From: Dryococelus australis
Taxonomy: Eukaryota > Arthropoda > Insecta > Phasmatodea > Phasmatidae
DNA length: 64,000 nucleotides
Assembly: GCA_029891345.1 (NCBI GenBank)
Contig: CM057003.1
Span: 6,986,709 to 7,050,708 of the forward strand
Direction: 5' to 3'
How positions within the stretch are numbered: position 1 is the first letter of the stretch; every line of letters starts with the position of its first letter. Below are positions 36,681 through 64,000 of the stretch, in pieces. The notes below the pieces were generated by a model. That model searched no databases. It saw only the letters and a list, made by a program, of their open reading frames with translations, and was not told where the DNA came from. The position numbers and the translations under genes were made by a program.

Positions 36681-36811
36681 CGGTAAAACCTTCAAATGTG
36701 GATATATCAATCCTGCTAAGTCCATAGTAAAGAGAAAGAAATTATCGAATGTAAGGGTAGTCGTTGTACTTGGTTTGGTAGAACTGTCAATTTTGGGGTT
36801 ATCAATCCTCA

Positions 36812-36918
36812 CTACCAAGCCAAGTACACTGATTACCCCCCAAGTCAGTTGCCTCCTTACTCTCATAAAGAGAAAGGAGGCAACTGACTTGGGGTAATCA
36901 GTGTGCTTGACTTGGTAG
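36812..36918. repeat. Long hairpin in the junction repeat array
   Basis: Arms of about 45 bp (36812-36858 and 36874-36918) pair almost perfectly around a 15-base loop. Both arms are copies of the exon-donor repeat, one inverted relative to the other (gtcagttgcctcctt against aaggaggcaactgac). Confidence 0.9.
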
Positions 36919-36956
36919 TAACACTGCCAAATCCAGAGGGATCAATCCTCAAGGCG

Positions 36957-37145
36957 ACCTCCCGTGGCGCAGTCGGTTGGAGCACTTCCGGTCTGCGGAG
37001 CGGGAGGTTCTGGGTTCGAATCCTAGGTAAGGCATGGGTGTTAGTTTAAGTTAGGTAAAATGTTAGTTTGTAAGCCGTCCCTTGATATGCCTTCAAGCAT
37101 AACACCGGGGGATGTTAATAAGCCCTTATCAACACAATACAATCC
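36957..37145 (+). mobile_element. tRNA-derived SINE, second family
   Basis: Head ctcccgtggcgcagtcggtt (A box) and gggttcgaatcct (B box) spaced as in a tRNA, followed by an unrelated body (gttagtttaagttaggtaaa). It ends near cttatcaacacaatac. It interrupts the repeat array; caatcct on both sides may be a short target duplication. The head does not fold as a sound tRNA with matching acceptor ends, so I do not call a tRNA gene. Confidence 0.7.
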
Positions 37146-37577
37146 TTATCAAGCCGTAGTTAGAACAATGAGGCAACTGATCTAAGGGCAGTTGCCATGC
37201 ATAGCTTGGTAGCTAAACTGTCAAATTTGAGGGGATCAATCCTCCTTGAGCCATAGTAAAGAGAAATGAGGCAACTGACCTGAGGATAGTCGCATTTATT
37301 AGTCTGGTAGTAAAAATAGTCAAATTTGGGGGCATCAATACTTCTCAAGCCATAGTTAAAAAAGAAGGGTAGCAACTGATCAGGGTGTAATCGGCGTACG
37401 TTTTCTGTTAGCATTACTGTCACATTTGGGGAAATCAATTCTCCTGAAGCAAAAGTTAAAGACAATGGGAACCACTGATCTGGATGTAGTCGCCTTACTT
37501 GGTCTGGTAGTAAATCTATCAAATTTGGGGAGATCAAACTTTCTCAAGCCATAGTAAAGAGAAAGAAAGCGACTTAC

Positions 37578-37800
37578 CTGGGGATAGTCGCCGTACTTGG
37601 TCTGGTAGTCGAAGACGTAGAGGTAGGAGTTGTGGCGCGCGGTCGAGTGCAGGTCGGCGGTATGGACGACTGGCGCCACGAATTGGGCGTCGCTGAGCGC
37701 CTCCAGGGTCTCGTCGCGGATGTTGAAGGGGTGCTGCACGGGCCGCTCCCAGTCCGTGTACTCGTTCACGATCGTCGCCAGGATCTCCGACAGGTGGTAC
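37578..37800 (-). CDS. Neuroligin internal exon (downstream of the two)
   Basis: The 223-bp exon encodes YHLSEILATIVNEYTDW, then VQHPFNIRDETLEALSDAQF, then YVFDYQTKYGDYPQ. This matches the cholinesterase-like ectodomain of insect neuroligins, postsynaptic adhesion proteins that bind neurexin. The acceptor is gccggcag/G at 37801-37800 and the donor is CAG/GTAAGT at 37578-37577. One base completes the Arg codon left by exon 42817-43312 and the exon ends in phase 0. The expected next exon (HGEDLPYVFG region in this family) is not in the window. Both junctions are repeated in the flanking introns. No stop or frameshift is seen, so the exon looks functional. Identification is from recalled family similarity. 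Confidence 0.93.
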
Positions 37801-37962
37801 CTGCCGGCATAACCACCCCCAACATACGTGCGACAGGTGGTACCTGCCGGCATAACCACCCCCAACATACGTGCGACAGGTGGTACCTGCCGGCATAACC
37901 ACCCCCAACATACGTGCGGCGACAGGTGGTACCTGCAGACACAACCACTCCCGACACACGTG
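37788..37962. repeat. 43-bp tandem repeat spanning the exon acceptor, 4 copies
   Basis: Copies begin at 37788, 37831, 37874 and 37920. On the minus strand each holds about 30 bp of intron end (tgttgggggtggttatgccg), the acceptor cag, and the first 13 bp of the exon (gtaccacctgtcg). All four acceptors keep AG. Copy 4 is diverged and 3 extra bases separate it from copy 3. Confidence 0.95.
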
Positions 37963-39870
37963 CGAGTCTCTCGCATCACCAGGGTTCACCACCCACCGTG
38001 GCGAAAGTTGCATTGACTGGCATTGGTGTTTTTTGGGGGTAGTTCCATTTCGCGTACCCTTACATCTTATCAGTGCCCCATTCTTGCAATGCTTCGTCAT
38101 CATGGGGGTGAATACCTCATCATCACACTCTTCCATTTAACCCTTTGAGTCCCTGGGTCTACTACAGTGGAAATGGCGTAGAGAAAGTAAATACCGGATG
38201 GATATGAACTCTAACGTCAAACTTTGGCGGGTGATTCCTTATCACTAGAGAGCTAGAAATATCGCGAATTCATTTGAGGACAAGTTAGACTCCAAACACA
38301 TGTACACTTGACTTCCTTCTTCAATTTGATTGCAGTTTGTAAGACATGCGCTGGATGAATTCGAGCTAGTAACCAACTTACAAGGAAAACAAGGACCAAT
38401 TCCGTGCTATTTGGTCTGCGTCAAAACTTGAGCATCAGCCAATGGGGAACTAACTGAGGTTCGAGAACATACATAATTGTGAATTCTAGCTTGTCGCTAA
38501 ACGATAACGCAAAATTCCTGGGTCTCTTCCATGTAGCAAACCACACATGGCCCATTTATGGTTTACAGTCGGATACCAAGCCTGCAAACATTTTGCCAAC
38601 AGCTGGTATGCACCCGGCACCATTGCTGGTCCTGAACTGGCTCCACTAACTAGCCATACTCTGTCCATAACTGGGCCAGGTGTGGTGAACACAAATGGCC
38701 TAAGCATGGTCTATATGTTTACAACAGCAATTGCCCATCGATGGACCATTTAACAGCCATCAGATGGCCTAATGATGGCTAGCGATGCTTCCACTATATG
38801 TCTGACACTAATCAATTATTTTTACCTTCAAGATCAACATTTCTTTGTTTTAATTTCCTTTACTTCACTATTAAACACATTATACGACATGAAAATCTTA
38901 TGCTTACCGGTAGAGGAGAGGGGGTGTGATCATGCATCCCTTTCATTGACAGCCCTGCATGCTAACCATTACTCCACTGTGTATTCTTATATTCAGATGA
39001 ACTAATTTTGAATATATTAGGACTTGAATTATTAACAAACACCAACATAATATAAATTACACCAGTTATTCCATAGTCTTAAAATTTACCATGCGAACAG
39101 ATCAGTTTTTAAAAAGATGCAGATAAACAAAAAAAAAAAAACTCTCTTTGAAAGCAATCTTCCTACATGAATCGCGATATTAACTCAAAAAACTTGCCAT
39201 TAATGTAATATTTCCCAGTATGTATGTCACCTAGATGCTATTCATCAGTTTAGAAATGCAGTCGCCATTAATGAATATTTTAGTGATGTGAAACAACAAA
39301 AGAATATCAATGTTAATTTTCTAAAGGTGGTTATTTATTGTTTTTTTTTTAACTTCTCGTTTTAATTATATTCAACCATGCATGTAAAACATTACATATG
39401 TCAAATTATTCTATACCAGTGACGAAGTCACAACTAATACTGTATTTTCAGCATTTTGCCATAGATATTTCCATCACTATACATTTACAAGTAACATACT
39501 CATTGCATCATATGATATATAATTATATTAGACACATATATACATATATATGTGTGTAGTTTGAAGAAGCTATCTGCGAAGAGTGGGAGCCACAATTCCC
39601 ATAATAAGATAAATTACACCAACAATGGTCCTTCGATGTACCACCTCTCTGCTATCAAATGGCCTATAGATGGCTACCCATACCTTTACCAGCAATCAGT
39701 ATAGGTTATAAGGCCATTGCTGGAATACAGTTGGTAAGCAATTTATGCGCCATTAATAGGTCACCTTCTCTCAACCATCAGTTTCATTTATATCAACATT
39801 CCATCAGTGGGCCATAAATGGCATGCCAAGCGTCTTGCTGCCAGCAGTTAACCTTAGCTTATGGGTCAAA
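37963..39870. other. Neuroligin intron, repeat-like blocks
   Basis: No exon seen. Two blocks rich in atggcc and ccatcgatgg-type words (about 38530-38780 and 39620-39830) flank an AT-rich core and may be the ends of an unrecognised transposon. Confidence 0.4.
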
Positions 39871-42285: not shown

Positions 42286-42313
42286 GTCAGACCATGGCGA
42301 TGCACACACATTG

Positions 42314-42632
42314 GAGGTATTAGTCTATAGAGTGAAGCCGATAATGAAAGACAAGGGCAGGGCTAGGAGGTATTAGTCTATAGAGTGAAGCCGATAATGA
42401 AAGACAAGGGCAGGGCTAGGAGGTATTAGTCTATAGAGTGAAGCCGATAATGAAAGACAAGGGCAGGGCTAGGAGGTATTAGTCTATAGAGTGAAGCCGA
42501 TAATGAAAGACAAGGGCAGGGCTAGGAGGTATTAGTTTATAGAGTGAAACCGATAATGAAAGACAAGGGCAGGGCTAGGAGGTATTCGTCTATAGAGTGA
42601 AGCCGATAATGAAAGACAAGGGCAGGGCTAGT
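42314..42632. repeat. 53-bp tandem repeat, 6 copies
   Basis: Unit core ggaggtattagtctatagag, then gtgaagccgataatgaaag, then acaagggcagggcta. Copies are almost identical; the fifth has gtttat and aaacc changes and the sixth has attcgtc. It lies in the intron 185 bp downstream of the donor of exon 42817-43312. Confidence 0.97.
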
Positions 42633-42816: not shown

Positions 42817-43312
42817 CTGTAGGTGTTCCTGACGAAGGTGCGCAGGACCTTGGAGCGCCGGTCGGCCTCGATGCCGTACTGGATGTCGTCGCCGGAGAAG
42901 GCGAGGTACGCCTCGGCCCTGACGACGCCGAGCAGGAGGTCGTACCTGGCGAGACGCGACACCACCGCCTTGCGCTCCATGAGGCCGGACGTCGGCGACG
43001 AGGAGGAAGAAGAAGAGGACGAGGAGGACGAGGAGGATGAGTCGGAGGACTGGGCGGGCTCGTCGCCGTCGATGACGACGCCGTCGACGCTGGGTCCGAA
43101 GGCGGGGGAGAACTGAGGCGGGTTGACGGGCGCGGAGAGGAGCGCGTCGAGCGGCCTCTCGCGGAGGCATCGCAGCAGCAGCGAGTCGGGCAGCCCCGCG
43201 GAGCAGTTGGCGTGGCGGGCCACCTGGAGGGCGTAGTGGCCAGGGTTCTCGACGAGCGCCCACGGGCTCAGCGCGGAGCCGCTCATCAGCACAGCGCGGT
43301 GGAACAACGTCC
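42817..43312 (-). CDS. Neuroligin internal exon (upstream of the two)
   Basis: The 496-bp exon encodes TLFHRAVLMSGSALSPWALV, the segment just after the nucleophile elbow of cholinesterase-like proteins. It continues through NCSAGLPDSLLLRCLRERPL, FSPAFGPSVDGVVIDGDEP, RYDLLLGVVRAEAYLAFSG and LRTFVRNTY. The acceptor is gtgcag/GGACG (after a TG repeat) and the donor is ACAG/GTGAGA at 42817-42816. It ends after two bases of an Arg codon that the next exon completes, giving RNTYR then YHLSEIL as in insect neuroligins. A Ser run of about 15 residues sits in the normally variable loop before the RYDLL block. The frame is open throughout. N-terminal exons would lie above 43312 and are not in the window. 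Confidence 0.93.
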
Positions 43313-62462: not shown

Positions 62463-64000
62463 TACTAGAAACAAGGATGAAGAAGATTAGGATGAGGAGG
62501 AGAGAAGAGGGGGGAAAGGGAGAAGGGAATAGAGGAGAAAGGGGAGGAAGAAGAGAGTAAAAGGAGAAAGAGGGGATAAAATGAGATTAGGAAAGGACGA
62601 TAAAGAGGCGAGGAAGGAGGAATATGAGGATGGAAGAGGAATGATGGAAGAGGAAATAGAGGAAAAGGAATATGAGGGGAAAGATAGAGAGGGAAGAGGA
62701 AGATGAGGAGGAAAAGGAATATGAGGAAGATGAGAGAAGAGGAAGATGCGGAGAAGAATATGAGGATGAAGGAGAAAGACGAGGAAGTAGAGGAAGATGA
62801 GGAGGAAAAGGATATGAGGAGAAAGAGGAATATGTGGAGGAAGAGGAATATGGGGAGGAAGAGGAATAGAGGAAGAAGAGGGAGATGAGGAGGAAGAGAA
62901 AGACGAGGAGGTAGAGGAAGATGAGGAGGAAAAGGAATATGTGGAGGAAGAGGAATATGAGGATGAAGAGGGAGATGAGGAGGAAGAGAAAGACGAGGAG
63001 GTAGAGGAAGATGAGGAGGAAAAGGAATATGTGGAGGAAGAGGAATATGAGGAAGAAGAGGGAGATGAGGAGGAAGAGAAAGACGGGGAGGTAGAGGAAG
63101 ATGAGGAGGAAAAGGAATATGTGGAGGAAGAGGAATATGAGGAAGAAGAGGGAGATGAGGAGGAAGAGAAAGACGAGGAGGTAGAGGAAGATGAGGAAAA
63201 GGAATATGTGGAGGAAGAGGAATATGAGGATGAAGAGGGAGATGAGGAGGAAGAGAAAGACGAGGAGGTAGAGGAAGATGAGGAGGAAAAGGAATATGTG
63301 GAGGAAGAGGAATATGAGGAAGAAGAGGGAGATGAGGAGGAAGAGAAAGACGGGGAGGTAGAGGAAGATGAGGAGGAAAAGGAATATGTGGAGGAAGAGG
63401 AATATGAGGAAGAAGAGGGAGATGAGGAGGAAGAGAAAGACGGGGAGGTAGAGGAAGATGAGGAGGAAAAGGAATATGTGGAGGAAGAGGAATATGAGGA
63501 AGAAGAGGGAGATGAGGAGGAAGAGAAAGACGAGGAGGTAGAGGAAGATGAGGAGGAAAAGGAATATGTGGAGGAAGAGGAATATGAGGAAGAAGAGGGA
63601 GATGAGGAGGAAGAGAAAGACGAGGAGGTAGAGGAAGATGAGGAGGAAAAAGAATATGTGGAGGAAGAGGAATATGAGGATGAAGAGGGAGATGAGGAGG
63701 AAGAGAAAGACGAGGAGGTAGAGGAAGATGAGGAGGAAAAGGAATATGTGGAGGAAGAGGAATATGAGGAAGAAGAGGGAGATGAGGAGGAAGAGAAAGA
63801 CGGGGAGGTAGAGGAAGATGAGGAGGAAAAGGAATATGTGGAGGAAGAGGAATATGAGGAAGAAGAGGGAGATGAGGAGGAAGAGAAAGACGGGGAGGTA
63901 GAGGAAGATGAGGAGGAAAAGGAATATGTGGAGGAAGAGGAATATGAGGAAGAAGAGGGAGATGAGGAGGAAGAGAAAGACGGGGGGTAGAGGAAGATGA
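62463..64000 (+). repeat. Polypurine region with 90-bp tandem array
   Basis: From about 62480 the plus strand is almost only A and G apart from regular T of gat, tat and gtg words. From about 62863 it is a 90-bp array of about 12.5 copies, each encoding a 30-residue Glu-rich unit with EKEYVEEEEYE and EEGDEEEEKD. Indels are multiples of three, such as the 3-bp loss near 63193, so a 349-codon frame runs 62941-63990. Units differ at two sites (gatgaa/gaagaa and gacgag/gacggg). The array runs to the window end. Confidence 0.92.

Follow-up and report, generated by a model that had tools for sequence, protein, structure and literature searches.

The 64,000-nucleotide stretch of Dryococelus australis DNA analysed here (C11:6986709-7050708; hereafter the window) carries on its minus strand a 223-nt exon at 37578-37800, whose translation reads (R)YHLSEILATIVNEYTDWERP...FDYQTKYGDYPQ and has GDYPQ as its C-terminal end. 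Its reading as a neuroligin exon, made in the first-pass annotation, is borne out by protein comparison: neuroligin-1 is the top solved-structure match (E 1.7e-5), with cholinesterases next, from 7e-5, and Pfam COesterase matches the exon with an E of 2e-8. Its acceptor junction (gccggcag|G) lies in phase 2 and its donor junction (CCCCAG|gtaagt) in phase 0. The preceding neuroligin-type exon, recognized by profile matches and by its edges, occupies 496 nt at 42817-43312 on the same strand; no array of period at least 15 lies at its edges, and a CA run adjoins its acceptor. It also codes for a run of 15 serines, a coding microsatellite, and a TG run precedes its acceptor. A scan of the window with seven short motifs gave no convincing further neuroligin exon, and Rfam gave no match at gathering scores. 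A 53-bp array at 42313-42631 was considered as exon-edge sequence and set aside, as it had no other match above chance when compared with the window.

Tandem copies of the exon's own splice junctions at both edges of 37578-37800, as first described, are confirmed by TRF, direct repeats, and nhmmer, and alignment to the exon edges finds exon sequence in the units of both arrays. The acceptor-side array (37788-37965, minus strand; TRF period 43, 4.1 copies) is made of four units of 43-46 bp. Each copies the end of the intron with its CAG plus 13 bases from the start of the exon, just as originally reported, and CAG|GTACCACCTGTCG is present four times, with the first exon-type base at 37932, 37886, 37843, and, for the authentic copy, 37800 (spacings of 46, 43, and 43). 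CAG|GT is kept in four of four units. The inner three copies are identical over 45 nt, and the outermost is 87% identical. Use of the outermost copy, A0 (37920-37932, after ctgcag), would add 132 nt in frame, or 44 codons without a stop; use of A1 (37874-37886) would add 86 nt and shift the frame, with a stop, and use of A2 (37831-37843) would add 43 nt, also with a frameshift. The exon continues as TCG|GAGATC, the outer intron flank reads GAC|TCG|CACGTG, and the inner unit junctions read CTG|TCG|CACGTA, the outermost junction having three extra bases. This pattern suggests that the founding breakpoints shared 3 bp (TCG), which would account for the copying of exactly 13 exon bases. A hairpin was considered and dropped: CGGCAGGT-ACC-ACCTGTCG would allow pairing across the acceptor, yet one unit alone shows no folding advantage over its shuffles (z 0.66). 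About three units together do fold better than shuffles (z -3.6), as expected of tandem near-palindromic units.

The donor-side array (36684-37609, minus strand) consists of seven units of about 99 bp, each formed by the last 32 nt of the exon and 67 nt of intron. Its units were delimited by nhmmer, blastn, and alignment, and around the insertions by eye; TRF reports 37140-37609 with a period of 99. That the donor junction is copied here had been recognized correctly, although the number of copies, put at about four, was too low, the seven units reaching 36684, beyond the interval then marked. With the exon-edge unit as query, nhmmer gives strong copies at 37311-37216 (6e-15), 37511-37417 (4e-11), 37411-37319 (3e-10), and 36781-36686 (1e-8), and weaker pieces at 37212-37140 (2e-4), 36918-36860 (0.002), and, inverted, 36812-36864 (0.02). 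Unit 0 (37511-37609) contains the authentic donor, CAG|GTAAGT. Unit 1 (37412-37510) has lost this site (CAG|ATCAGT) and has a new CAA|GTAAGG at 37498; unit 2 (37312-37411) has lost it as well (CTG|ATCAGT). The one copy that the first-pass annotation credited with CAG|GTCAGT is unit 3 (37213-37311), with its donor G at 37279. Unit 4, whose first part (37146-37212) has lost the donor (TAG|ATCAGT), is split by a plus-strand insertion at 36956-37146, with boundaries read by eye and a tRNA-like head at 36957-37034 detected by ARAGORN; the remainder of the unit lies past it, at about 36920-36955. The insertion is presumably a SINE, and the window holds no second copy of it. In unit 5, an inverted-repeat search finds a foldback palindrome (36811-36919), formed by the head of the unit and, behind it, an inverted copy of that head; CAA|GTCAGT is kept in the head at 36888 (score 5.24), and the RNA fold of 36800-36920 reaches -85.9 kcal/mol versus a shuffle mean of -32.8 (z -13.2). 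The last unit, unit 6 (36684-36782), has lost its donor.

GT is thus kept in three of the seven donor units, 0, 3, and 5, the last with an altered -1 base; among the six extra units the +1 base has gone from G to A in three, and the site is gone in a fourth. Identity to the exon copy ranges from 65 to 78%, and identity among the units from 0.60 to 0.78. In the six extra units taken together, 140 of 188 sites in the exon part and 255 of 360 in the intron part match the exon copy. Exon and intron parts have therefore decayed alike, so that no selection is seen on the copied exon ends, which is what neutral decay would produce. At the far end the array reads TTTTAC|CGCAC, where units have, for example, TTTTTAC|TACCAG and the exon has TTCGAC|TACCAG; the founding breakpoint on this side perhaps shared 2 bp (AC).

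We searched the whole genome (3,415,067,245 bases) with both arrays. The acceptor array matches only itself, and the donor units give five matches: three at this locus, and two 39-nt matches where the exon ends in two paralogs. Because the search skips very common words, this is a strong hint, rather than proof, that neither array occurs elsewhere in the genome. The unrelated unit lengths, 99 versus 43 bp, argue for two separate duplication histories, and decay differs as well, the donor units being 65-78% identical and carrying an insertion and a foldback, the acceptor array having three identical inner units. The original proposal that the two edges were duplicated independently agrees with both.

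Splice sites were scored with matrices of human-type frequencies, and their scores are to be read as relative only. At 12.61, the authentic donor stands at the 99.97th percentile of the 7329 GT sites on both strands of the window. The decoy acceptors and donors pointed out earlier are indeed present, namely A0-A2, the CAG|GTCAGT of unit 3 (8.58), and the CAA|GTAAGG of unit 1 (8.07). With the authentic donor far above the best decoy (12.6 versus 8.6), the donor is safe on paper. On the other side, the authentic acceptor, A1, and A2 all score -0.36 (65th percentile of 7364 AGs), and A0 scores 2.48 (84th percentile). Accessibility of the four acceptor AGs, computed by local folding, gives no usable preference, the AGs of A0 and A3 both being mostly paired. 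Recursive splicing between the CAG|GT copies was considered and judged unlikely, since CAG|GTACCA has a donor score of only 3.6 (87th percentile) and the copies lie close together, 43-46 nt apart.

The same exon edge has been duplicated elsewhere in the family. A genome-wide protein search lists ten matches to the exon (L002-L011, L002 being the window gene), three of which have tandem copies of the donor junction: the window gene (period 99), L008 (102), and L009 (84). L008 (G000:C8:20512008-20515247) has three further intact CAG|GTAAAC, making four donors with the authentic one, and L009 (G000:C14:98268670-98271891) has five further intact CAG|GTGAGC, making six. The own exon end of L008 reads CCCC versus CCCCC in its copies, possibly through a long-read indel error. 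The three units have unrelated intron parts, with similarity scores reached or exceeded by 672, 1000, and 751 of 1000 shuffles, and the exon portions copied, judged from TRF starts, differ (about 32 nt in the window gene, 58 in L008, and 34 in L009), which argues that the three donor arrays arose as separate events. An apparent homology between the arrays of L002 and L008 was due to exon sequence and disappeared with pure intron parts. The recurrence in two paralogs shows that exon-edge duplication has been repeated in the D. australis genome. The other seven paralogs have no edge array; in L004 a 21/42-bp array begins about 60 nt past the donor. The acceptor array, among the ten, is found only in the window gene.

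The intron that ends at this acceptor is itself restricted in distribution. Coding sequence runs uninterrupted across the acceptor position in seven of the ten paralogs (L005-L011), as in RILRTYVRNAYSYHLSE, and in L003 it extends about 12 codons upstream of that position; an intron exactly there appears only in L002 and L004. Together with the likeness of the L004 acceptor to the inner copies described below, this distribution makes the intron seem to belong to the L002/L003/L004 group, and it appears to reflect either a gain in that group or a loss elsewhere. The acceptor array is probably younger than the split from L004, which has one copy. Origin of the intron by flank duplication finds no support, the donor and acceptor flanks scoring 15 against a shuffle mean of 15.4, with 604 of 1000 shuffles at least as high.

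How common are such arrays? As a comparison set we surveyed Ion_trans loci, where exon ends were taken as profile-match ends, so that edge counts are approximate, and where 70 loci, some overlapping, were examined out of 79 listed matches. Arrays of period at least 15 cover 2.3% and 2.1% of the two locus sets. One edge array was found among 140 edges of the 70 loci, with about 3 expected at 2.2% coverage, and exon edges in general are therefore not enriched. The single case, L038 (G000:C4, around 39489687-39489878), which we take to be a para-type sodium channel, has three copies of the acceptor junction GGCAG|GCGACG at the Ion_trans exon ATFEGWMEVMADAVDARG..., spaced 150 and 165, two of which carry only about 103 exon nt. 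Between two copies in L038, 1 of 107 columns varies in the exon part versus 4 of 43 in the intron part (p 0.024, for a single pair with a TG repeat in the intron part). No array lies near the exon in the L038 relative L057 (C4:246724885). The array in L030 ends just before the acceptor, and that in L080 lies within the intron.

For the exon homologs in the nine other paralogs, 2 of 18 edges have an array (binomial p 0.057 at 2.2% coverage; Fisher p 0.034 versus 1 of 140). Arrays near 3' match ends occur at 7 of 24 neuroligin-group loci versus 1 of 70 Ion_trans loci (p 0.0002), a post hoc comparison that includes the window gene and takes in every array between -20 and +150 relative to the match end; only for L002, L008, and L009 among these seven was exon sequence shown in the unit. 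The COesterase set comprises 14 hand-picked neuroligin-like loci of 85 listed matches, again with profile-match ends as exon ends; L094 is probably another esterase. When the window's 16 arrays, merged by hand, were placed at random, an exon received different arrays at its two edges in 1.1% of trials, with the edges of the preceding exon entered 2-4 bases off. Chance overlap is thus a little strained, and the edge and locus counts (2 of 18 and 7 of 24) indicate that something may favor arrays here.

Several arrays near intron starts are worth recording separately. An 18/90-bp array (62738-64000 of the window and L096) fills the first part of an intron, from about 20 nt beyond the donor of a further COesterase exon at C11:7050744-7050941, just past the window end; exon sequence is absent from its unit. 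L086, L096, and L004 each have an array that starts past the donor, at a distance of about 8-60 nt; in L090 one starts near the match end. It is possible that tandem arrays cluster at intron starts in the neuroligin-type gene family. The TRF periods in L002, L008, L009, and L038 (99, 102, 84, and 150) are each divisible by three, unlike the 43-bp acceptor unit, although the whole acceptor array adds 132 nt; five arrays are too few to judge.

Tandem duplications across exon-intron boundaries have been described in amphioxus genes as "mirages", and the D. australis arrays share their anatomy, which by sequence places them in a known but rarely reported class. In amphioxus, mirage units are 10-160 bp long, occur at either boundary, and in many cases carry AG/GT; judged by RT-PCR, splicing seems regular, and mirages are proposed as a route to intron gain (PMC3087553). 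Both systems have units that span the exon-intron boundary at either edge, many but not all with AG/GT, and the unit lengths here, 43-46 and about 99 bp, fall within the amphioxus range (PMC3087553). Mirages are described as homogenizing their inner units with the boundary unit excluded (PMC3087553), a pattern that our acceptor array fits, with three identical inner units and the outer one at 87%, and that the donor units, at 0.60-0.78, do not. The amphioxus globin genes are each affected at one boundary, BflGb6 on the acceptor side and BflGb9 on the donor side (PMC3087553), whereas here both boundaries of one exon are involved, in an insect, and the donor edge was hit independently in three paralogs. 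In the open-licence literature we found no earlier report of boundary-spanning minisatellites outside cephalochordates. With donor-edge arrays in two of nine other paralogs, an acceptor-side array in an ion channel, and the published mirages, the pattern called unusual in the first-pass annotation is not unique.

Single duplications of splice junctions offer further comparisons. Human CBS c.844_845ins68 likewise duplicates an intron/exon junction and sets two like sites in competition, although it is a single 68-bp duplication, a human polymorphism without an array; the spliceosome strongly favors one site, yielding normal mRNA (PMC2630376). In OCT1 (SLC22A1), the donor junction of exon 7 and intron 7 is also duplicated, with the difference that the duplication is 8 bp and adds one copy; alternative splicing was measured at 38-52% in minigenes and 0.3-0.6% in liver (PMC8137991). 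Intron gain by tandem genomic duplication is related in that duplication of AG|GT can make new splice pairs, and the acceptor units here carry CAG|GT. In that process the duplicated segment is exonic, and the intron forms from the sequence separating the two copies (PMC3443670), whereas here a pre-existing junction was duplicated, and the intron ends are no more alike than by chance (604 of 1000 shuffles as good).

Considering these data together, we think it likely that the arrays are two independent exon-edge minisatellites of the mirage kind, near-neutral, with the strong authentic donor in use and either A0 or the exon-proximal copy as acceptor. A short stretch spanning the splice junction would have been duplicated in tandem, separately on each side of the exon, and the duplicated junctions would then have expanded by unequal crossing-over or replication slippage. 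The arrays would be selectively near-neutral, and the tandem duplications at this exon are most likely neutral; splicing would use the strong authentic donor, the donor decoys being mostly dead. The acceptor in use would be either the exon-proximal copy, giving the normal protein by joining ...CCTACAG to GTACCACCTGTCGGAGATC, or the outermost A0, which would preserve the frame and add 44 residues.

Use of A0, constitutive or alternative, would place an in-frame insertion of 44 residues (YHLSPHVCWGWLC...YAGR) in the cholinesterase-like domain. The 132 nt contain no stop and keep the frame, in contrast to the added sequence of A1 and A2, which shifts it; and A0, the most upstream of the four CAG|GT copies, scores 2.48 versus -0.36 for the other three. 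That advantage, however, comes from a splice matrix of human-type frequencies with relative scores only, and local folding, with the AGs of A0 and A3 both mostly paired, expresses no preference. Moreover, L004, apparently with the same intron, has an acceptor of the inner type, GGTGGTT-ATGCCGGCAG versus GGTGGTTGTTGCCGGCAG; its resemblance to the inner copies is equaled by 10 of 1000 shuffles, that to A0 by 210 of 1000. None of the eight read-through paralogs (L003, L005-L011) has an insertion at that point. On this balance, use of A0 seems rather unlikely.

A second alternative concerns the donor edge, where duplication could supply ready-made in-frame microexons, some copies being spliced in and lengthening a neuroligin loop. 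The F-D/E-Y-Q codons (TTCGACTACCAG) read like an acceptor 24 nt before a phase-0 donor, so each copy would be an in-frame exon with both signals. Unit 3 has a hypothetical 24-nt microexon, TNKCDYPQ (37280-37303, minus strand), whose acceptor scores 8.52 and donor 8.58 with the human-type matrices, and an in-frame pair at the same thresholds arises in 4 of 500 dinucleotide shuffles of the array region. Two of the three extra copies in L008 hold a 24-nt exonlet and one a 23-nt exonlet (donor 7.53), and all five in L009 hold a 30-nt exonlet, HQSGETDYxQ (donor 11.2). An acceptor-like site of 5.0-6.8 stands 23-24 nt before the exon end in seven (L002-L008) of the nine scored paralogs (L002-L010); L009 has one of 7.35 at 30 nt and L010 one of 3.8 at 26 nt. 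Short spliced stretches have precedent: vertebrate neuroligins splice stretches of 9-19 residues, and bee neuroligin-3 shows alternative splicing in the neuroligin adhesion domain (PMC2570956). Against this, the 8.5 threshold was chosen after the pair had been seen, and weaker pairs are common, with seven in-frame pairs at scores of at least 6 on the minus strand of the window. Units 1, 2, 4, and 6 of the window array have no donor, and the exonlet acceptors are weak, 5.4 in L008 and only 1.3-3.4 in L009. Conservation gives no sign of use in the window array, where the exon part shows no excess (140/188 versus 255/360), nor in L008, where variable columns number 1 of 56 in the exon part and 1 of 46 in the intron part; L009 shows a weak trend (2 of 33 versus 10 of 51, p 0.075). 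We consider spliced-in donor-edge copies quite improbable, and about equally so the broader proposition that repeated junction duplication bore variably spliced in-frame microexons, of 24 nt in the window gene and L008 and 30 nt in L009, that lengthen a loop of the synaptic adhesion domain. If true, it would mean microexon birth by junction duplication.

It is highly improbable that error-prone long reads made or miscounted the copies: the assembly was built from PacBio CLR reads, for which its authors say that short-read polishing might fix indel errors (PMC10268593), and the three inner 43-bp units are identical, but identity of the donor units to the exon copy is only 65-78%, one unit contains an insertion, the outer acceptor unit has diverged, and the given read N50 of 35 kb would cover the whole region (PMC10268593). 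The copy number of the identical inner acceptor units could nevertheless be off.

The arrays show that boundary-spanning minisatellites extend beyond amphioxus, can occupy both edges of one exon, and recur at one exon across paralogs. Their neutrality, if it holds, would also call for caution in annotation, since good splice sites on a fragment of exon sequence need not make it an exon. The paralogs further form a natural series, with a decayed array in the window gene, fresh ones in L008 and L009, and none at the edges of the other seven. Such a series suits the study of how the spliceosome chooses among duplicated sites, and of arrays as seeds of exons and introns.
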